DNA of 24,967 nt. Origin: a virus. Under the pieces are notes generated by a model, which ran no database searches, was not told the DNA's origin, and worked only from the letters and a program-made list of their open reading frames with translations. The translations under genes were made by a program, and so were the position numbers. The stretch lies in the IMG/VR virus record IMGVR_UViG_3300027733_000193, positions 1 through 24,967 of that record, one strand, 5' to 3'. Shown one piece after another: positions 5,486 to 24,700 of this stretch (the first letter of the stretch is position 1; the number at the start of each line of letters is the position of its first letter).

Positions 5486-6112
5486 TTAAGTTAAGTATGA
5501 TACAACACCTAAACCTTCTACCAACTCTGATTCATTTAAAACAGCATAGAATAAACCGTCTAACTCTAATAGAGTTAAGTCATCGTACTCTAACACACCT
5601 TCTGTACCGTACACAATACATAAATTAAATAAAAAGTCACCTTTTGGTCGTGAAGGTAGAAGTATTTTGTTATTTATTATTTCTGTTCTAGTTATTGTGA
5701 CTAATTGTAAATTATCTAACTTTTGTTTATCAGTTGCGGATAATAAACCCGCAAAATCTTGGTTAGCTAAATTACCTGACAGGTGGTCAAATTCGTCCAA
5801 GTATACACTTTTTTCACTTGGGTAAGTGATAAAAACATGCTTACTTCCTTGTATAAATTCAACAAGGTTATCATTATTTGATGAAGAAAATACTTCAATT
5901 CTTTCTAAAGCATTTTGAATGCTCTTATATTTACCTAGACCTATCTCCCAATAAGTACCTAACTGACTTTCTATTGCATAATAACATAAATCATTATTAC
6001 TTAGTTTAGACGAGAAAGGTAGGAAATTGTCAACTGCACCTAGTAAATTTACTCTACCTATCCCTTCTACTTGTGTTACTTCTTTAACTCGGTTAGCTAG
6101 TTTAAGTGACAT
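5486..6112 (-). CDS. Minor structural protein with conserved N-terminal module and fibre motif
   Basis: A 208-residue protein. Residues about 1-112 follow a module that I recall from many phage tail or receptor-binding proteins: 'LANRVKEVTQVEGIGRVNLL' then 'GAVDNFLPFSSKLSNNDLCY', 'YWEIGLGKYKS', 'FSSSNNDNLVEFIQGSKHVF' and 'ITYPSEKSV'. It is followed by 'FAGLLSATDKQKLDNLQ' (about 119-135), a standard linker unit of phage fibres. The C-terminal 65 residues are not recognised. No clear ribosome-binding site stands before the ATG at 6112; it lies 20 bases after the upstream stop. A role in the tail tip or as a fibre adaptor is inferred from the modules and context. Confidence 0.65.
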   Translation of the reverse strand: MSLKLANRVKEVTQVEGIGRVNLLGAVDNFLPFSSKLSNNDLCYYAIESQLGTYWEIGLGKYKSIQNALERIEVFSSSNNDNLVEFIQGSKHVFITYPSEKSVYLDEFDHLSGNLANQDFAGLLSATDKQKLDNLQLVTITRTEIINNKILLPSRPKGDFLFNLCIVYGTEGVLEYDDLTLLELDGLFYAVLNESELVEGLGVVSYLT

Positions 6113-13827: not shown

Positions 13828-14508
13828 ATGGCGGTCAGCATAGATTTTTCTGAATTATATAAGGTACATCAACAACTTATAGATTATAAAGACATTTCTA
13901 TAGCTGAACCGTTAATTACAAAATCTTTTGTTAAGTTTAATGATGTTTTAGGTGATAGGGTTAGTAAGTTATATGCTCACCCTAAAAAATTAAATGATAT
14001 ATCAACTAATTTACATGGACTTCCTAAATTAGTTAATAAAGGTATGTTAGAGTATTCGGTAACTTATCCACATAGGTTAACAAGTTTGACTGAATATCCT
14101 TTACTTAAAGAAAAAGTAGCAACACCTACAGCAAAATTCCCAAAAAGAATGCCTAACAGTTACGTTATTTGGACTCCTTCTAGGTTTGCTGAACAGGTTA
14201 GTGTTATTATTAGAAGGGGTAAACCTTTAGTAACATCTAGGACAAACAAAAACTTAAAGGGTTTTCATAATAAAAGCCGTAATGTTATAATGGCTAGAAA
14301 ACAAAAAGCTACTTGGAAAGTATACCCTTCTTATCTTGTTGAAGGTGAGAGAGCACCATATAGTGAAATATACGCACCTAGTTTAGCTCAGTTAGGAAGT
14401 ATTACTTTTGATAAAGACCCTACAGTGATTTTATCTGTTGATTTTTTATACGAAGATATACAAAACATTCTGCTTGACAATGCTACAATTTTGCTTACAA
14501 AAGGTTAG
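13828..14508 (+). CDS. Tail completion protein (lambda gpZ-like), tentative
   Basis: A 226-residue basic protein without a decisive motif. Its size, basic middle ('KEKVATPTAKFPKRMPNSYV', 'SRTNKNLKGFHNKSRN') and end 'VDFLYEDIQNILLDN', plus the segment 'YPSYLVEGERAPYSEIYAPS', suggest the gpZ/HK97-gp10-like family of tail completion proteins, which bind the head-proximal end of the tail so that it can join the head. It is the first gene after the major capsid protein; lambda has two small genes (FI, FII) before Z, so the order differs here. TAGGATAAG precedes the ATG. The stop is one base from the next start. Confidence 0.5.
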   Translation: MAVSIDFSELYKVHQQLIDYKDISIAEPLITKSFVKFNDVLGDRVSKLYAHPKKLNDISTNLHGLPKLVNKGMLEYSVTYPHRLTSLTEYPLLKEKVATPTAKFPKRMPNSYVIWTPSRFAEQVSVIIRRGKPLVTSRTNKNLKGFHNKSRNVIMARKQKATWKVYPSYLVEGERAPYSEIYAPSLAQLGSITFDKDPTVILSVDFLYEDIQNILLDNATILLTKG

Positions 14509-15488: not shown

Positions 15489-17321
15489 ATGTCACAAGTT
15501 GCAAAGTTTGACCAGAAAGCTATTGTTTTGTATGGTTGCCCACAAGTAACTGAAGGTATTTCAGTAAAACAAAACTTTTTCAATACATTTAGCGGACTTG
15601 ATGCTGATAATCGTGAAGTTGAGTTAGCTTACAGAATTAATACTTTTGGTGCTGAAGTTAGTTGTTATAAAGGTATTATTACATATACCCCTGGAGTTAA
15701 ACCACAAGAAATATTTACAAAAATACCATTCAAGGATGGTGAGAATCCTTTTAAAACTTTATCTGTTGGTTCTTATATTTATGATATTCAAGGTTCTATA
15801 AGTTTAGCTAACAGTGAACTTAAAGGAGATATTTTAGGTAGAATTCAAAGTATTGCTGCTACAGTTCCTAACACTGTTGGTGGTATTACCACACCTGTAT
15901 ACGTCAGAACCCTAACTTTAGAAGAATTACCTGTAGTAAAACCATTTATCACAGGTGTACAAATGAAACAATCAGGTGGGATTGATTCAACTGAATACCA
16001 TAAATTTCGTGTAGGTTTAGGTCCTAAAAACGCTATTGCCGCACTTAACTTTAACTTCTCTATTGACACAACTTCAGATAGTTTTCAATATATTGGTGAT
16101 GAGTTAGATAGAGATGAAGTTACCGTAATTACAGATAGAACATGTAAGTTTGATTTTGAAACTTTTGTACCTGTTTTGGGTACTTATGATAATAAAGTTG
16201 ATTTGGGGATTACAGTTGGTAGTGCTACTTTTACAAGTTATCCTGATTCTAATGGTGACCCACTGTACACTGATGAGATTGTTGTAACTTTAGCGAATAC
16301 TGTAGTTAATAATATAATTACTGCATCAGCTATTTTAGTTTATACAGCCATACCTATCGGAAGTTATTTAAACTATTATGATGCTTCAGGTAATTTAATT
16401 GAAATAGGTAAAATTACTGGTAAAGTTGCTGATGGTACTGTTCGTAAACTAACTATAGCATCTCCAACACAAGTATATGCTGATTCTGCCGCAGCAAATA
16501 ATGCCTTAGCAAATAAAACCCTAGTCCTAACACTAACCGAAAGTGTAGCAAACATACCTTTATCTTCTTGGTTTCAAGCTACTGGAATGAGTTTAACTGT
16601 AGTTCCTTCAGCTAAACAATACTACATTACAAATAAACGTATTTCAAATACCTTTATGACTGTAGAAATTCATCGTGCATCACCTGATATGCGTTTGAAA
16701 GATAAAGTTTATACTTTAACCGATGTTAGAGGAAGTATTGACCTTGATTTAGTTATTGGTTCTAAACCTAAATTCAAATTCGCTTTTGAAGGTAACGTAA
16801 ACCAAGCTAAAATTGCGGCAGAACATTTAAAAGTTTTCCCTGATTTTGAAAAACAAAAACAAACTACTTCAAACACTCTTAAATCTTCAAGTATTTCTTA
16901 TATTTCTTTAAGAGAGTATGATGGTTTGCAAGAGAATATCCCTGCACCTGCTACAGAATCTAATATTGAGTTTAATAAAATTACAGCACCTAACTTTACA
17001 GGTTTTGAGTACAGTAGATACCAAACAAGTGGTTTAGATTCTTGGTCTAAAGGTGGTACACCTTCTGACCTTACTGTAAGTATTTTAGAAGACATCAGTT
17101 CTAGTGCAGTTGTATTTGACCCGCACGATAACTTAGAGATGTATCACACACTAGAATTGAAGTATAAGAAAAATGATGTTCAATCAGGTATAGGTTCAAC
17201 AGTTAGGATTGTGTTTGATAAACTACAATTAACAAAAGTAACTGCGGGTACTATTGCCAAATTTGTATCCCAAGATGTTGGCTTTAGAAATGTTGGTAAA
17301 ACAACAATATATTTCAGCTAA
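15489..17321 (+). CDS. Major tail tube protein, unusually large (tentative)
   Basis: A 610-residue protein placed where lambda has its tube protein gpV (246 residues), between tail terminator and tail chaperones. The end 'VRIVFDKLQLTKVTAGTIAK' then 'FVSQDVGFRNVGKTTIYFS' and the segment 'IGSKPKFKFAFEGNVNQAKI' are beta-rich and of the type seen in tube or tube-decorating domains. About residues 235-400 (from TVGSATFTSYPDSNGDPLYT to KNKRISNTFM-like strands) look like an extra beta domain that could decorate the tail surface. Cys is rare. GAGG precedes the ATG. A different possibility is a tail sheath-like or baseplate wall protein, but no contractile-tail genes are present. Confidence 0.6.
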   Translation: MSQVAKFDQKAIVLYGCPQVTEGISVKQNFFNTFSGLDADNREVELAYRINTFGAEVSCYKGIITYTPGVKPQEIFTKIPFKDGENPFKTLSVGSYIYDIQGSISLANSELKGDILGRIQSIAATVPNTVGGITTPVYVRTLTLEELPVVKPFITGVQMKQSGGIDSTEYHKFRVGLGPKNAIAALNFNFSIDTTSDSFQYIGDELDRDEVTVITDRTCKFDFETFVPVLGTYDNKVDLGITVGSATFTSYPDSNGDPLYTDEIVVTLANTVVNNIITASAILVYTAIPIGSYLNYYDASGNLIEIGKITGKVADGTVRKLTIASPTQVYADSAAANNALANKTLVLTLTESVANIPLSSWFQATGMSLTVVPSAKQYYITNKRISNTFMTVEIHRASPDMRLKDKVYTLTDVRGSIDLDLVIGSKPKFKFAFEGNVNQAKIAAEHLKVFPDFEKQKQTTSNTLKSSSISYISLREYDGLQENIPAPATESNIEFNKITAPNFTGFEYSRYQTSGLDSWSKGGTPSDLTVSILEDISSSAVVFDPHDNLEMYHTLELKYKKNDVQSGIGSTVRIVFDKLQLTKVTAGTIAKFVSQDVGFRNVGKTTIYFS

Positions 17322-17347: not shown

Positions 17348-17902
17348 ATGACAAAACTATTTATTAAAGCACAAAAACCTTCAGTAGAGAAAGTAATTAC
17401 GGCTAAAGGTGTTAAAGATAATGTAACTGTAGGTATCAAAGTTTATTCTAATTCAGAGATTGACACGATTAGAAAGAACTTTCAGTCTATGTTAGAAAAC
17501 ATTAAGGTTAGCAGATTACTCCGAGAAGTTGAATTAGTCAAAGAAGACAATGACTTATCAATCTCAGAAACTGAAAGTAAACTAGAAGAATTATATTCTC
17601 TTATTGATGTATACCAAGAAGAACAAAAAGATAAATTACATGCTTTTTATCGAGAGCATGTTTTGTATCTTAAAAATGCTTCCCTAGCTTATGAAGATGA
17701 TTTAGGTAAACGTGTTGATGTTCTTGTAACTGATACAAAAGAAGCAAAGGATAATGAATCCTTGTGGGAAAAACCAGAAAAGTGTCTACCCGTCCTCCTA
17801 GACATATTTTTTGATTCACCGTACTACAGGGATTCATTTATTACTGTAATTACCGAAACTATCCTTAACTATTCTGATAAGGAAGCAGAAAGAAAAAACT
17901 AA
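17348..17902 (+). CDS. Tail assembly chaperone, short form (lambda gpG-like)
   Basis: A 184-residue protein that in this family binds the tape measure and keeps it soluble until the tube assembles. N-terminal beta segment 'LFIKAQKPSVEKVITAKGVK', then charged helices (LSISETESKLEELYSLIDVY and 'EEQKDKLHAFYREHVLYLKN'), and a helical end 'ITETILNYSDKEAERKN'. It lies directly between the tail tube and tape measure genes. GAGGACGAC precedes the ATG. The last sense codons are AGA AAA AAC before TAA, which form the slippery heptamer A AAA AAC, so a minority of ribosomes should shift into the longer product. Confidence 0.8.
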   Translation: MTKLFIKAQKPSVEKVITAKGVKDNVTVGIKVYSNSEIDTIRKNFQSMLENIKVSRLLREVELVKEDNDLSISETESKLEELYSLIDVYQEEQKDKLHAFYREHVLYLKNASLAYEDDLGKRVDVLVTDTKEAKDNESLWEKPEKCLPVLLDIFFDSPYYRDSFITVITETILNYSDKEAERKN

Positions 17903-18282
17903 TTGAAGCAGGTAAGGCATTAGGTAGAGCATCTTTAGAAAAACCTAATGCCGAAACTGTACTTAAAAATAAACAAGATGAAGATTCTTTTTTGCAAGCC
18001 TTCCCTGATTTTAAAGATGAAGAATCTGAAGAAGAGGAAGAGGAAGATATAGAAGAGGAAGAGATTTTTTATATCTTCGATACGGTAAAAGACTTATTCG
18101 ATATTTACAATATTTGTTTAAGTTATGTAGTAAATGAGTTTAATTCTTTAGATTCTACTGTTTTAATAGCCTTAATTAAGGATAAAGGTCTTAATATAAC
18201 AGATAGTTTGTCAAAAATCCCTTACATTCACAGTGGTTTTCTGAACATAATCAACTCAAAGGCAAAAAGCAATGGCAAATGA
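17348..18282 (+). CDS. Tail assembly chaperone, frameshifted long form (gpGT-like)
   Basis: A -1 shift at 17893-17899 skips the TAA at 17900 and continues from codon CTA at 17899 to the TGA at 18282, adding 127 residues to give about 311. The extra part starts LIEAGKALGRASLEKPNAET, passes through a strongly acidic run (ESEEEEEEDIEEEEIF) and ends in a helical region 'SLDSTVLIALIKDKGLNITD', comparable in place to the T part of lambda gpGT, which contacts the tube. The T frame has no ATG and no ribosome-binding site near its beginning, and the next gene (tape measure) overlaps its end by 11 bases, so frameshifting is the natural way to express it. Confidence 0.85.
17893..17899 (+). promoter_or_regulatory. 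Programmed -1 frameshift slippery site A AAA AAC
   Basis: The heptamer follows the X XXY YYZ rule in the correct phase: codons AAA (17894-17896) and AAC (17897-17899) can both re-pair one base back as AAA and AAA. The zero-frame stop follows immediately at 17900-17902. Sites of this kind link G and GT in tail-chaperone genes of many long-tailed phages. Confidence 0.88.
17916..17952 (+). promoter_or_regulatory. Perfect 10-bp stem-loop downstream of the slippery site (possible pseudoknot)
   Basis: GGCATTAGGT (17916-17925) pairs fully with ACCTAATGCC (17943-17952), leaving a 17-base loop. The stem starts 16 bases after the heptamer, somewhat further than the usual 5-9. Loop bases CATCTT (17930-17935) can also pair with AAGATG (17975-17980), which would make an H-type pseudoknot. 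The pairings are seen directly; the stimulatory role is inferred. Confidence 0.65.
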
Positions 18283-21200
18283 TAAAAATTTGAATTTAAG
18301 GTTAAAGGTTGTCTTTGATACTGATGGTACTGCTGTACTACGAACCTTAAAGGAAATTCAAAAAGGGGAAGAAGCCAAGAGTAAGGAAAATGATAGGCAG
18401 GTTCGGATTGCTCAGGGGTATAACGATGAGCAAATAAAACAGTTAGATAAAGCAGATAAACTTAAAGGTTTAATGCAAAAAACAAATGATATATCGAAAA
18501 AAGCACTAGACGAACTAAATAAACAGGTTAAGGAACAAAATGATTTATATGTTAAAGGTGTAATAAGTCAAACAGAGTTAAATAGAAAAAGTCAGGAAAT
18601 ACTTGATACTGATAAACAGAGGTTAGATAACCATAACAATATACTTAACAGTTACAAAAAAGAACTTGGAATTATAAATGGTATTGTTGAAGCACTTGGC
18701 AAGAAAAATAAAATAGAGAATGAACCACCACCAAAAATAACTTCTAGTGGTTATTCAGGGTATAATTTGCCTAATGGTAAATCAAGGGCAACTAAGCCTA
18801 TGGGTTATGACTATGTTTCAGGTGGGGCTGCTTGGGATAGGGAAAAAATAGAGAAAGAAGGTAAAGATTTAATATCCGCAATAACCAAAGTAGGAAAACA
18901 ACAAGAAGAAGAATATAAACAACTTATAAAAGCCCAAGAAGAAGTATTTAGAAATGCACATAAAGTAGAGTTTGATAGAAGGTTAAGCCTATTTAGAGAA
19001 CAATCTAAAGAAGAAATCCGCCTACAACAACTTACTTTAAAAATAAAAGAAGGTATAGCTTTAGAAGGTGAGAATAGTATCACAGCTTTTAAAGCTAAGC
19101 AAGCGGAAAAACACTTACAAATAGAAAGAGAACTTCAGCAAAAGTTAGTTTCTTTAAATGATAGGGTTGGTGCGGGTGAAATATCTTTAGCTGATGCGGC
19201 TAGATTACGCACACAAGCAATTGAAGCCCAAACAAGAGCAATCTTATCTAATAATTCCGCTACACGGCAAGGAATATCCTCTAGAACAACTCAAGATACC
19301 TCTTCTACCAACACTTCCGCATCAATGACAGGTAGAATGTCACAAGGTTATGTCCCACCTAACTTAACCGCAACCTTATCCCAATACAGTAGAGCTTACA
19401 GGGATAGTTTATCTATAATTAACTCAAATAATGTTGCTTTAGAAAGAAATCATCAACTACATCACAACATTGTTCTTCGTGTTGTTGAGTTAATTGGTCT
19501 GTATCGTGCATGGAATCTTGTACTTAACTCCATAGCAAAAATCCCGCAAGTAGGTATAGAATTAGAATCTACCATAGCAAGTTTAACCGCTACTGCGGGT
19601 GGTTCTGGTGGTATGGGAAGTGTTATGGAGGGTTTAAGAAAAGAAGCTGACAGAACAGGCATATCCTTACTCACTTTAAGGGAAACTTTTAGAGGTTTTC
19701 AAGCATCAACAAGTTTAGCTGGAGAAACTATTGATTCTACTTGGAAAATGTTTACGGACTTGAACACTGTTATTACAGGTTTACATCTTCCAGCAGACAA
19801 AGCTAGTGGAATCTTCCTAGCTATGGCACAGATTTTTAATAAAACAAAAGTACAATCTGAGGAGTTAGTTAAGCAGTTAGGTAACTTACTGCCGGGTGCT
19901 TTTGCTAGTTTTGCTGCGGCTAACAGTATAGCTTTTGGTGGACAGTTTAAAAACTCTTTAGATTTGATTAACCAAATGAAAAAGGGTATGGTTTTTGCTC
20001 ATGATACTGTTGAAAACTTTACTGAGTTTTTAGCTAATCGGTTTGCCCCTGCCTTTGCTTTAGCTAGTCATAGTTTAAATGCTGAAATAGGTAGAATGAA
20101 TACAAGTTTTGTTCTTTTAAGTGAAGGAATATATAACTCTACTTCAGGAATTATTTTAGGTTTTGTAAGGGGAGTTACTTCAGCCGTTAATGCCATTAGA
20201 GGTGCTATTGATGGTACAAATAATTTAGGTAACATTTTTAAAGGTGTTCTAGCTGTAGGTATTGGTTTAACTGTAACAGCATTAATAAACTACACGACTC
20301 AATCTGTTATAGCTGCTGCTTTAAGTATACAAAAAACAAGTGCTTTAGTTGCTGAAGCGGCTGCAACGGCTGCACTTACAGGAACTACCGAAGCTTTAAC
20401 TTTTGCACAAGCAGGAGCTATAGTTACTAGCAAAGGTTTAGCATCTGCACTAGCTTTTTTCACTAGCAAAGCCTTTATTGTAGGTGCTTTTGTAACGGCT
20501 GGGATAAGTCTTTACAATGTTTTTACCTCATGGCGGAAACCTATAGACGATGCAAATGATTTTTTAGAGAAAACAAAAGAAAATTTAGACAAAGTTTTTG
20601 AAAAACCAGCAACTTTAGAGATGAAGATTGATGCTGACCCTATGGTTAAGGAAGCAACTAAGATTAAGGAGGGTTTACTAAAAGATATTGCAGAGACAGA
20701 AACGAAACTTAAAGATAAATGGTACAACAAGAGTCTTATAGGGCTGTTTGATATAGCAAAGTTGGAAGAAGAAAAGAAAAAAGTTGTTGAGATTGACGAT
20801 AAAATAGTTGTTGTACGTGAAAATGCTAAGATAACTTTACAAATAGAAAATCAACAAGCTTTATTAGATATTTCTGAAGTAAGTAACAAAATGGAAGTGT
20901 TAGCTTTAGAAGCACAGGGACTTAGTGCAGAGGCATCTAAGTTAAGATTTGAAACTACTTATGCTGGTGACATAGCTAAAGCAAATAAAATAATCGAAGA
21001 AGGTAATGCACCTGTTTATAAATTGTCACGAACACCTAGTATACTTGATTCTATAAATGCTACACAAGGTAATTTACCAAAACCAACTACAGCTATAGAG
21101 GCTGATAAGGAGAGGCTTAAATATTTGCAAAAGACTAACGGACTTAATGCAGATGAAACAGCTGAAGGACTGTTCCTTACAAACAAAATAGAACAGCACG

Positions 21201-23047
21201 AACAAGCAACTAAAACATTAGCTAACTATGATATAGCAAGTAACAAAGCATCTTTAGATAAACAAGCAAAGGATGTGGCTGATTACACACAACTTAAATT
21301 AAATATTGGTAAAGCTGCTTTTGGGGAAGCTAAAACTGCTGAAGAGGCTGCACAGAAAGCTAGAATATCTGCTGAGTTAACTGCACAAAAACAGTTAGAA
21401 GAACTTCAAGGTTACAGAGCTGAGCTTAATTATGCATCTAAAAATGGTCCGTTAAATGAAGAACAGAAAAAGAAATTAACTGAGATAACTGAGCTAGAGA
21501 AAAATGTCCGTACTGGTGTAGAGAAAGCTGTATCAGAGGCTAGAGAGGATTTTAATAAGAAAAATACTGAAACAGCTAAAGAAGGTTTTGAATCCGATAC
21601 CAAAATGGCTAAAGCATTTTACAAAGATTACATACGAGATGCTGACAATGCTAGTAAAGTAATTTTAGGGCAAATAGAAAAAACTTCTTGGGCTTATGAA
21701 GACCAAAAAATAACATTACAAGAATTTTATCAACAAAAGAGAGAACTTCTTGAAAAAGATTTTAAACAACAAACTGAAGCATCTGAGAAAGCTTTAGAAT
21801 TAGCTAAACAAGTTAATGACCCGAATAAAATTTTAGAATATACGGATAGAGTTGCGGGTTTAGCGGATGCAAAGGAAAGAAATAATACGCAACTTGACAG
21901 AGAGCTTTACTTAGCGGAACAGAAAAAACTTGTTGATGATATTAATTTAAAATACCAAAAAGATTTACTTAATATAAGTACAAAAAGAAGCCTAGCTGAA
22001 GGTAAGTATTTAACAGGTTTAACCAATGAAATAGCTTACGTTAAAGAAATCAATGATTTACGTGTAAAAGAAATTCAAGCAATTTATAAAGCTATTGATG
22101 CAAAAAAAGAATTACTAGCTTTACCCGATACAGAAGATAAAAAAACCCTACAAGAAGATGTAGATAAATTAAACGATGAGGCTGCTAAAAAAGCTATCCC
22201 AATCGGAACAACCCCACAATCTGTTTTAGCTTTAAAAGGTAGTGACCCATTCAGTAAGTTTATGGGTATGAGTCCAAATACAAAGATTGGTGAATTGAAT
22301 TCTAACAAAAAGGTTGCGGAAACAGCTATTGAGGGAAAGTACGGAAAACCCGCTACAGGCAGTGAAGCATACGCTAAACAACTTGCAGAAAAAGAAGCGT
22401 TAGATAAAACCTATGCTGAAGCTTCTAAAGCAATATATTTAGAAAGTTATGGTTCTATAGCTGGTTATGGTGCTGATAGTTTCTTATCTTTAACTTCTTC
22501 TATGCAAGCTTATTATGGTGCTGATAGTGAAGCTGCTCAAGCTGCCTTTATAGCTTACAAAGCTTTTAAAATATCTGAAATTATTATAACAACAAGCTTA
22601 CTTGCTATGAAGTTAGCTGCTTCACAAGCTGATATGCCTTTTGTAGGTCCTGCACTTGCTGCGGCTATGATTCCTTTAGCTTATGCTATGGGTGCTATTC
22701 AGATTGCTACTGTAATTGCTCAACCTATGCCTGCTGCTGCTCATGGTGGTTTAACTAATGTACCTGAAGAACAAACTTACTTACTTAACAAAGGTGAGAG
22801 GGTTTTATCACCTAAACAAAATACTGACTTTACCAACTATCTAAAAGGTAAGCGTGAACAATCATCTAGTGGACAAAACCAAAATAATGTATATAATATT
22901 GCTGTAACTGTTAAAAGTAATAAAGATGATAAGCCATCTGATACAGGTAATAAAGTAGCTGAGGCAGCTATGAGAGCTATAGCTAACCAAGAAATAAATA
23001 AAGCATCTAGGTTAGGTAACAAATTAAATAAAATATCTTCCTTTTAA
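18272..23047 (+). CDS. Tail tape measure protein
   Basis: A 1591-residue protein that sets tail length and is ejected with the DNA. It is mostly helical: a charged coiled N-terminal part (about 1-390), a core of TMP type (about 390-560, 'RVVELIGLYRAWNLVLNSIA', 'LGNLLPGAFASFAAANSI'), two hydrophobic segments (about 655-680 'AVGIGLTVTALI' and 720-750 'FIVGAFVTAGISLYNVF'), another long charged coiled region (about 760-1400), a hydrophobic stretch (about 1435-1485, 'GPALAAAMIPLAYAMGAIQI'), and the common tape-measure end 'AAHGGLTNVPEEQTYLLNKG' followed by ERVLSPKQN. At about 0.15 nm per residue, the tail would be near 240 nm, much longer than lambda's. It overlaps the chaperone frame by 11 bases. 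Confidence 0.95.
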   Translation: MANDKNLNLRLKVVFDTDGTAVLRTLKEIQKGEEAKSKENDRQVRIAQGYNDEQIKQLDKADKLKGLMQKTNDISKKALDELNKQVKEQNDLYVKGVISQTELNRKSQEILDTDKQRLDNHNNILNSYKKELGIINGIVEALGKKNKIENEPPPKITSSGYSGYNLPNGKSRATKPMGYDYVSGGAAWDREKIEKEGKDLISAITKVGKQQEEEYKQLIKAQEEVFRNAHKVEFDRRLSLFREQSKEEIRLQQLTLKIKEGIALEGENSITAFKAKQAEKHLQIERELQQKLVSLNDRVGAGEISLADAARLRTQAIEAQTRAILSNNSATRQGISSRTTQDTSSTNTSASMTGRMSQGYVPPNLTATLSQYSRAYRDSLSIINSNNVALERNHQLHHNIVLRVVELIGLYRAWNLVLNSIAKIPQVGIELESTIASLTATAGGSGGMGSVMEGLRKEADRTGISLLTLRETFRGFQASTSLAGETIDSTWKMFTDLNTVITGLHLPADKASGIFLAMAQIFNKTKVQSEELVKQLGNLLPGAFASFAAANSIAFGGQFKNSLDLINQMKKGMVFAHDTVENFTEFLANRFAPAFALASHSLNAEIGRMNTSFVLLSEGIYNSTSGIILGFVRGVTSAVNAIRGAIDGTNNLGNIFKGVLAVGIGLTVTALINYTTQSVIAAALSIQKTSALVAEAAATAALTGTTEALTFAQAGAIVTSKGLASALAFFTSKAFIVGAFVTAGISLYNVFTSWRKPIDDANDFLEKTKENLDKVFEKPATLEMKIDADPMVKEATKIKEGLLKDIAETETKLKDKWYNKSLIGLFDIAKLEEEKKKVVEIDDKIVVVRENAKITLQIENQQALLDISEVSNKMEVLALEAQGLSAEASKLRFETTYAGDIAKANKIIEEGNAPVYKLSRTPSILDSINATQGNLPKPTTAIEADKERLKYLQKTNGLNADETAEGLFLTNKIEQHEQATKTLANYDIASNKASLDKQAKDVADYTQLKLNIGKAAFGEAKTAEEAAQKARISAELTAQKQLEELQGYRAELNYASKNGPLNEEQKKKLTEITELEKNVRTGVEKAVSEAREDFNKKNTETAKEGFESDTKMAKAFYKDYIRDADNASKVILGQIEKTSWAYEDQKITLQEFYQQKRELLEKDFKQQTEASEKALELAKQVNDPNKILEYTDRVAGLADAKERNNTQLDRELYLAEQKKLVDDINLKYQKDLLNISTKRSLAEGKYLTGLTNEIAYVKEINDLRVKEIQAIYKAIDAKKELLALPDTEDKKTLQEDVDKLNDEAAKKAIPIGTTPQSVLALKGSDPFSKFMGMSPNTKIGELNSNKKVAETAIEGKYGKPATGSEAYAKQLAEKEALDKTYAEASKAIYLESYGSIAGYGADSFLSLTSSMQAYYGADSEAAQAAFIAYKAFKISEIIITTSLLAMKLAASQADMPFVGPALAAAMIPLAYAMGAIQIATVIAQPMPAAAHGGLTNVPEEQTYLLNKGERVLSPKQNTDFTNYLKGKREQSSSGQNQNNVYNIAVTVKSNKDDKPSDTGNKVAEAAMRAIANQEINKASRLGNKLNKISSF

Positions 23048-23056
23048 ATATAATTT

Positions 23057-23431
23057 ATGTCTACTACAGCCACTTTTCTTCCCCACTCCGAAAAAATACT
23101 TTTGTCAAGTTCTAAAACAAGAGGGTTTAGAATGGTTGAAATGGGTTTTGACGGTTATCAGCAAGCAGCACCTAAAGGATTGAACCCTGCTTTTGATACT
23201 TGGGCAGTTGAGTGGGGTGGTTTAACTTTAACTGAGAAAGATGAAATTGAACTTGCTTTAACTTCTTCAGGTTCATGGGGAATATTGTTATGGAGACCTC
23301 CTAAAGAAACTTTAACTAGAAAGTTTAGAATGTCTTCTGATGGTTACACAGTTTCTATGGTTGGTAGGGGAAGCTTCTCTATCAGTTGCACACTTAAACA
23401 AGTTTTTGACATATTAACAATCAATGGATAA
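23057..23431 (+). CDS. Minor tail protein (lambda gpM-like)
   Basis: A 124-residue protein with the gpM family layout: 'FRMVEMGFDGYQQAAPKGLN', a central 'WAVEWGGLTLTEKDEIELAL', the turn 'GSWGILLWRPPKETLTRKFR' and the closing 'FSISCTLKQVFD'. It belongs to the distal tail or hub initiator, where tail polymerisation starts. The position after the tape measure and before gpL-like and gpK-like genes is exactly as in lambda. No clear ribosome-binding site lies before the ATG; coupling to the tape measure stop nine bases upstream is likely. It overlaps the next gene by 8 bases. Confidence 0.85.
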   Translation: MSTTATFLPHSEKILLSSSKTRGFRMVEMGFDGYQQAAPKGLNPAFDTWAVEWGGLTLTEKDEIELALTSSGSWGILLWRPPKETLTRKFRMSSDGYTVSMVGRGSFSISCTLKQVFDILTING

Positions 23432-23981
23432 CACAGATTTTGTAAAAGAAACGGAATCCTCAACTGTATCTAATGTTATTGAGTTGTTTATATTAGATTT
23501 AAGTTTAATTAATGGTTTTGATGCTTTAATTAACGGTTTTGATGGGGCTAACCCTACTTATTGGACTCCGTCAGGTGTTGTTATGAATGGTAACATACCC
23601 TCTGCACTAAAATTCAATGGTAATACTTATATTCCCTACCCTGTAAGAATCTCAGGTATTTCTCAGTCATCTGAAGGGGCTTACCCGCGACCTCAATTAG
23701 ATATTGCTAATGTTGATAAAATAATGGGTGGTTTATCTTTTATCTATGATGATATTGTAGGTGCTTCAATAACTTACATGAAGACCTTTTATAATTTTAT
23801 AGAGGCTGGGTTATCTTCCCCACCACTGAAATACTACATTGCTAGAAAATTAAGTCATGATATTAATATTTTGTCGTTTGAGTTAAGGACAGCTTTGGAT
23901 AAAGAAAGAGCTTACTTACCTTCGAGACAGATGTTAAAGAAAGATTTTCCTGGGTTAGGTATAAATAAGAGTGTAAAATGA
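23424..23981 (+). CDS. Minor tail protein (lambda gpL-like), without the iron-sulfur end
   Basis: A 185-residue protein matching the front part of the gpL family: 'VIELFILDLSLINGFDALIN' and 'YIPYPVRISGISQSSEGAYP' then 'RPQLDIANVDKIMGGLSFIY', 'DDIVGASITYMKTF' and 'HDINILSFELRTALDKERAY' ending in 'LPSRQMLKKDFPGLG'. Lambda gpL (232 residues) carries C-terminal cysteines that bind a [4Fe-4S] cluster; this protein ends soon after the 'LPSRQ' point and contains no cysteine at all. The gene is intact, with overlapping starts on both sides (8 bases before, ATGA 4-base overlap after), so this is a shorter family form rather than a visible frameshift. Confidence 0.8.
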   Translation: MDNTDFVKETESSTVSNVIELFILDLSLINGFDALINGFDGANPTYWTPSGVVMNGNIPSALKFNGNTYIPYPVRISGISQSSEGAYPRPQLDIANVDKIMGGLSFIYDDIVGASITYMKTFYNFIEAGLSSPPLKYYIARKLSHDINILSFELRTALDKERAYLPSRQMLKKDFPGLGINKSVK

Positions 23982-24700
23982 TAACTTTAAATCAGGTACA
24001 GAAAGCTAAGATACATAAATATAGTTTGTTATGCTATCCTAATGAAATGTGTGGTTTACTTACTGAAGATGACTTTATAAGCATACCTAACTTAAGTGAA
24101 GAACCTAGAAGTAACTTTAAGTTAGATACAAAAGCTATGTTACCTTACTTAGGTGGTGTTAAAGCTATTGTACATAGTCATTGTAAGAATCCTAAGTTAC
24201 CTAGTGTACTTGATGAAAGAACTCCATCTATAGCTGATATGGAAGGTCAAAAAACATCTGCTGTACCTTGGTTAATTGTTTCTTGTGATGGTTCAGTTGT
24301 TTCTAGCCCTCTTCAAATACCTAGAGAACCTAATAACAACTATATTGGTAGGGAATTTGTATGGTATGTTAGTGATTGCTACACTTTGGTGCAAGATTAC
24401 TATAAATTCGAACTAAATATCTTACTTCCAGACCATAAAGCTAGAGAAGATTACAGACTTTTACGGAATTCACATAATTTATTTGATGCTTTTATTGAGG
24501 AATATGGTTTTGTTACTAAACATAACTGGGCAGAGGCTGTTAATGGTGATTTAGTATTACTTAATCATAAGGGTAGTGTAAGAAATCATTTAGGTATTTA
24601 TCATAACGGTAAAATAATCCATCAAGACATGCTAAGTGTTGAGATACCTTTTGAACAAGTTTTACCTTATATTTGTGAGTTTTTGACTTATGTTGCTTAA
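23978..24700 (+). CDS. Tail tip assembly peptidase, JAMM plus NlpC/P60 domains (lambda gpK-like)
   Basis: A 240-residue two-domain protein. The N-terminal domain (about 1-115) has the JAMM metalloprotease residues: E23 in 'NEMCGLL', H66 and H68 in 'IVHSHC', then S84 and D87 in 'TPSIADMEG'. The second domain is NlpC/P60: Cys134 in 'YVSDCYTLVQDYY' is the expected nucleophile and His204 in 'RNHLGIYHNGKIIHQ' the general base. This combination is found in lambda gpK, needed in tail tip assembly and possibly cutting peptidoglycan in infection. It follows the gpL-like gene with an ATGA overlap and precedes a gpI-like gene. Confidence 0.92.
   Translation: MITLNQVQKAKIHKYSLLCYPNEMCGLLTEDDFISIPNLSEEPRSNFKLDTKAMLPYLGGVKAIVHSHCKNPKLPSVLDERTPSIADMEGQKTSAVPWLIVSCDGSVVSSPLQIPREPNNNYIGREFVWYVSDCYTLVQDYYKFELNILLPDHKAREDYRLLRNSHNLFDAFIEEYGFVTKHNWAEAVNGDLVLLNHKGSVRNHLGIYHNGKIIHQDMLSVEIPFEQVLPYICEFLTYVA

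Follow-up and report, generated by a model that had tools for sequence, protein, structure and literature searches.

In phage lambda the tail assembly chaperones gpG and gpGT are made at a ratio of about 30:1, by an arrangement that long-tailed phages widely share (PMC5009743). It is a familiar trick of tailed phages to let some ribosomes slip back one base, so that a single message gives a tail-building helper in two forms. In this study we describe a candidate locus of this kind in a virus record of 24,967 bases (IMG/VR IMGVR_UViG_3300027733_000193, positions 1 to 24,967), the whole of which we call the window. Like lambda gpG/gpGT, the locus lies between the tail-tube position and the tape measure gene and consists of two overlapping frames, with a heptamer of the form X_XXY_YYZ near the end of G, a predicted -1 shift to a longer GT product and tail genes in lambda order around it. 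It differs from lambda in the heptamer itself (A_AAA_AAC instead of G_GGA_AAG), in a 0-frame stop codon that adjoins the heptamer, in G and T proteins that have no significant family match and in a covarying two-tier hairpin downstream.

Three other systems invite comparison. The g-t genes of HCTV-1 and HCTV-2 also use the heptamers G_GGA_AAC and A_AAA_AAC (PMC5009743), but these are archaeal (haloarchaeal) viruses and the comparison covers the heptamers alone. In E. coli dnaX an A-type heptamer is likewise followed by a hairpin, and a Shine-Dalgarno-like AAGGA lies upstream here too; however, the heptamer of our locus ends in C and not in G, the dnaX shift gives a shorter product, and selection on the Shine-Dalgarno-like element is not supported here. 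The stimulator of HIV-1 gag-pol (PMC7618472) resembles ours in architecture only: in both, a strong upper stem stands apart from a lower stem that is partly built of the spacer, whereas virus and sequence are unrelated and an internal loop takes the place of the GGA bulge.

Results

Genomic setting and relatives

Judged from its genes, the locus is embedded in a lambda-like morphogenesis module. A gpA-type terminase, a lambda-family portal, a decoration protein and a capsid E gene lie upstream in the window, followed by an ORF in the tail-tube position, G, T, the tape measure gene and then M-, L- and K-like genes (Table 1). Two overlapping frames lie directly 5' of the tape measure gene, a layout common to the relatives with full loci. 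The tail-tube-position ORF (window 15489-17321) encodes 610 aa and has no Pfam or PHROG match; its relatives range widely in length, between about 420 and 625 aa, as though extra domains had been inserted. Rfam and ARAGORN gave no matches in the window.

For comparison we used 23 distinct loci including the window, the relatives being taken from IMG/VR. DNA and protein searches of INPHARED (50,697 phage records) with G, T and the tube-position ORF gave no matches, a profile search of genome contigs with the capsid profile gave no prophage relative, and a DNA pattern search around the heptamer returned two matches only. The G/T pair belongs to an undescribed environmental phage family.

Table 1. 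Positions of the features of the G/T locus and of the neighbouring tail genes in the window
Feature	Positions	Strand	Remarks
Predicted G-type tail assembly chaperone ORF, 184 aa	17348..17902	+	ends AGA AAA AAC TAA; homologues in 18 aligned loci
Shine-Dalgarno-like AAGGA, 9 nt 5' of heptamer	17879..17883	+	selection not supported
Slippery heptamer A_AAA_AAC, in G phase	17893..17899	+	22/23 distinct loci; G_GGA_AAC in remaining one
T domain, -1 frame, 127 codons, without Met	17899..18282	+	3' end inside start of tape measure gene
Lower helix 5' arm GCAG, 8 nt after heptamer	17908..17911	+	11 bp long in L003; weak in window alone
Upper stem 5' arm GGCATTAGGT	17916..17925	+	perfect pairing; covariation in subclade
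Putative pseudoknot loop arm CATCTT	17930..17935	+	not supported
Upper stem 3' arm ACCTAATGCC	17943..17952	+	perfect pairing; covariation in subclade
Lower helix 3' arm CTGT	17957..17960	+	weak in window alone
Putative pseudoknot downstream arm AAGATG	17975..17980	+	not supported
Tape measure protein gene, directly 3' of G/T	18272..23047	+	PHROG 2335, E 3e-30; TMP_3 just under cut-off
M-, L- and K-like minor tail genes, lambda order	23057..24700	+	Phage_min_tail, Phage_tail_L, NLPC_P60 plus JAB

A conserved heptamer at the end of G

The first-pass annotation, made from the window alone, had placed an in-phase A_AAA_AAC at the end of G, and this heptamer is indeed found there, directly adjoining the G stop codon. 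The genes of the window contain 46 in-phase slippery heptamers, and no other has a long -1 frame behind it (127 codons here, 33 for the runner-up). In all 23 distinct loci a conserved in-phase heptamer lies near the end of G and T lies in the -1 frame, with G ending exactly at the heptamer or one codon further. A_AAA_AAC occurs in 22 of the 23 and the slippery G_GGA_AAC in the other. This exception, L045 (positions 5995-6001; also L046), has G_GGA_AAC at the same place and in the same phase and represents a natural exchange of slippery heptamers.

Codon choice at the site is strikingly uniform. The codon before AAA-AAC ends in A in 22/22 A-type loci, whether it stands for Arg, Ala, Leu, Val, Ile or Thr, and the Asn of the heptamer is AAC in every locus, though AAC is mostly a minority codon. 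At each of the two positions (first base of the heptamer and third base of the Asn codon) the synonymous probabilities multiply to about 1e-12, a figure that takes no account of kinship among the loci and so overstates the strength of the result. In E. coli A_AAA_AAC is an inefficient shifter, but insertion sequences very likely make use of heptamers of the type seen here (PMC4066793). A small share of GT would be in keeping with a weak heptamer.

The T frame and the G and T proteins

Positions 17881 to 18282 are open in the -1 frame, with no ATG over the 127 codons counted from the heptamer, which bears out the earlier claim that T has no ATG of its own. The first possible start of T is a TTG at 17992, T codon 31, and this TTG is not conserved. 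Conservation of T sets in at the codon that directly follows the heptamer (the sequence there is typically L-I-E-A-G), and nearly all loci have no start codon in that stretch. A conserved heptamer, a fixed phase and a T frame conserved without a start codon are, taken together, hard to explain except by a -1 ribosomal frameshift.

Searches with the proteins gave little. Phage_TAC_4 matches 4 of the 18 G homologues, at or below the cut-off (best 20.4 against 21.1 bits); the G of the window has no Phage_TAC_4 match, and an NCBIfam search with G gave chance-level matches only. Sequence searches of the PDB with the G and T profiles gave no matches. The AlphaFold model of G reaches a pLDDT of 85, and a fold search with it found no significant match among viral or PDB structures; nine of the 50 best viral fold matches carry chaperone or tail-assembly names, all with E above 0.1. 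The model of T is poor (pLDDT 66). The PDB fold matches of G lie on a long helical insert and belong to the common helical-hairpin kind. Several relatives (L004, L005, L015 and L031) have a much shorter form of this insert (residues about 35-103, window 17450-17656), so that the core of G would consist of two beta hairpins plus C-terminal helices. Since the family matches of G are sub-threshold and its fold matches are not significant, it is mainly gene order and the frameshift itself that speak for the proposed chaperone role.

A two-tier hairpin downstream of the heptamer

The perfect 10-bp stem reported by the first-pass annotation was confirmed: its arms pair by Watson-Crick pairs throughout and enclose a 17-nt loop. 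Only two stems of at least 10 bp with a loop of at most 30 nt exist in the 25 kb window and this stem is one of them, with p about 0.007 against recodings that preserve the T protein. The other (14004-14034) is AT-rich and lies within a gene. The stem is the top tier of a longer, interrupted two-tier hairpin, whose lower helix (17908-17911 with 17957-17960) has pair probabilities of 0.92-0.99 in the window. A spacer of 16 bases, as first noted, is therefore correct for the upper stem but not for the whole hairpin, of which the lower helix begins 8 nt past the heptamer; this brings the spacer inside the 5-9 nt that usually separate heptamer and structure (PMC7618472).

The window and three relatives (L003, L030 and L063) form a subclade that can be aligned without gaps. 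In the fold of L003 an 11-bp lower helix begins 3 nt past the heptamer, and an internal loop separates it from an upper helix that occupies the columns of the upper stem. In L030 and L063 most of these columns are able to pair, and the predicted fold of L030 has a lower helix with partly different partners; in the window the lower helix is reduced to the short form given above. Cells of the alignment were paired in 84% of cases against 22-41% in slid registers (three sequences), with five pairs altered on both sides. The consensus fold energy of the four sequences was matched by 0 of 500, 1 of 1000 and 0 of 1000 controls under three null models. Where both partners fall on third codon positions, 23 of 32 cells were paired, all by Watson-Crick pairs (null 11.6, p 0.001), four pairs showed two-sided changes (p 0.007) and the register was the best of 18, although this test was run after the single-helix test and went back to the same four sequences, and the structure had been derived from the same sequences that were used for counting. 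When the helices were tested one at a time, with synonymous changes only, most results fell short of significance, since much of the pairing is already dictated by the protein; the lower helix of the window did not rise above the recoding null. Covariation thus supports the two-tier hairpin in the four-member subclade only, where a conserved hairpin stands close behind the heptamer (8 nt from it in the window) and is predicted to have a stimulating effect.

Covariation of the stem in related phages, which the first-pass annotation had named as a check, was accordingly found among the closest relatives; the hairpin is not shared with other subclades, which have different ones or none. L031, L036, L043 and L044 have a 7-bp hairpin that begins 3 nt past the heptamer, L045 has an 8-bp GC-rich stem, and in L004, L005, L006 and L035 no structure rose above chance. 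Perfect or near-perfect hairpins of about 14 bp were seen in L016 (12716-12795) and L060 (5843-5922), of other sequence and at another place, further downstream than in the subclade of the window. As the hairpins differ between subclades while the heptamer stays, it is the heptamer that is fixed in this site and the hairpin that is lineage-specific.

We also considered an upstream stimulator of the dnaX type and obtained no support for it: Shine-Dalgarno-like pairing over the 23 loci was no better than in recodings for the same protein (mean p 0.50).

Discussion

Heptamer, T frame and gene order over 23 distinct loci strongly support the tail-chaperone -1 frameshift that had been claimed from the window alone. 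On this sequence evidence, a programmed -1 ribosomal frameshift very probably yields a tail assembly chaperone in two forms, G and GT, with a hairpin that probably holds the ribosome and no need for a pseudoknot. The majority of ribosomes would read AAA-AAC-TAA and release the 184-aa G. In a minority the tRNAs for Lys (on AAA) and Asn (on AAC) would slip one base back onto AAA-AAA, and reading would resume with CTA ATT GAA and so on to give a GT fusion of about 311 aa, ending just inside the tape measure gene. The two-tier hairpin (lower helix from 17908, upper stem 17916-17952) probably keeps the ribosome on the heptamer, and this stimulation would not require a pseudoknot. By analogy with lambda, G may bind the tape measure protein and T may recruit tail-tube subunits.

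Could the two products arise in another way? RNA polymerase might slip on the A run and produce messages that are one base longer or shorter, leaving the ribosome without a part. An A run is present and transcriptional slippage is known in bacteria (PMC5009743), but the run comprises six A only, in the window as in the other A-type loci, and the GGGAAAC of L045 keeps the X_XXY_YYZ pattern without such a run. As the phase of the heptamer is moreover fixed in all loci, we regard polymerase slippage as extremely improbable. It is just as hard to believe that T is a separate protein made from its own start, for example the TTG at codon 31, without any fusion. That codon exists, but conservation begins 5' of it, immediately past the heptamer, in a stretch where almost no locus has a start codon; the TTG is itself not conserved, and the conservation of the heptamer would be left unexplained.

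More weight attaches to the question of what, if anything, stimulates the shift. An H-type pseudoknot in which CATCTT of the loop pairs with AAGATG downstream had been suggested, and the 6-bp match is present as described, with five of the six pairs still possible in L030. The pseudoknot nevertheless found no support: a loop-to-downstream match of at least 6 bp arises in 24% of recodings, the pairing is broken in L003 and L063 (two of the three close relatives) and no pair is altered on both sides, so that we consider it very unlikely. It is also conceivable, if on balance unlikely, that the frameshift is real while the hairpin either has no role or needs a trans-acting protein, the strong stem being 16 nt off and the heptamer alone sufficing for a low level of GT. 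Heptamers by themselves shift ribosomes to a measurable degree in E. coli (PMC4066793), significant structures are lacking in several relatives, and in cardioviruses a stem at a distance of 13-14 nt acts together with a protein (PMC7618472). Against this stand the third-codon-position covariation and the consensus-fold tests in the four-member subclade, and the lower helix, which gives a spacer of 8 nt in the window. We therefore prefer a ribosomal frameshift that the two-tier hairpin would stimulate; the case for such a hairpin is stronger here than is usual, and there is none for a pseudoknot.

In conclusion, the best-known phage frameshift gains with this locus an environmental family that had not been described; otherwise the locus is ordinary. 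The loci of the family form a natural set with a constant slippery site and with hairpins that are exchanged between subclades, useful for testing whether hairpins control the G:GT ratio. AAC-ending heptamers are strong shifters in eukaryotes. In E. coli they are poor ones (PMC4066793). It might be, though we think it rather improbable, that the family fixes AAC-ending heptamers because the Asn tRNA of its hosts slips more easily on AAC, the hairpins then setting the G:GT ratio. If this were true, lineage-specific hairpins, two-tier and HIV-1-like in architecture in the subclade of the window, would tune the ratio of G to GT.
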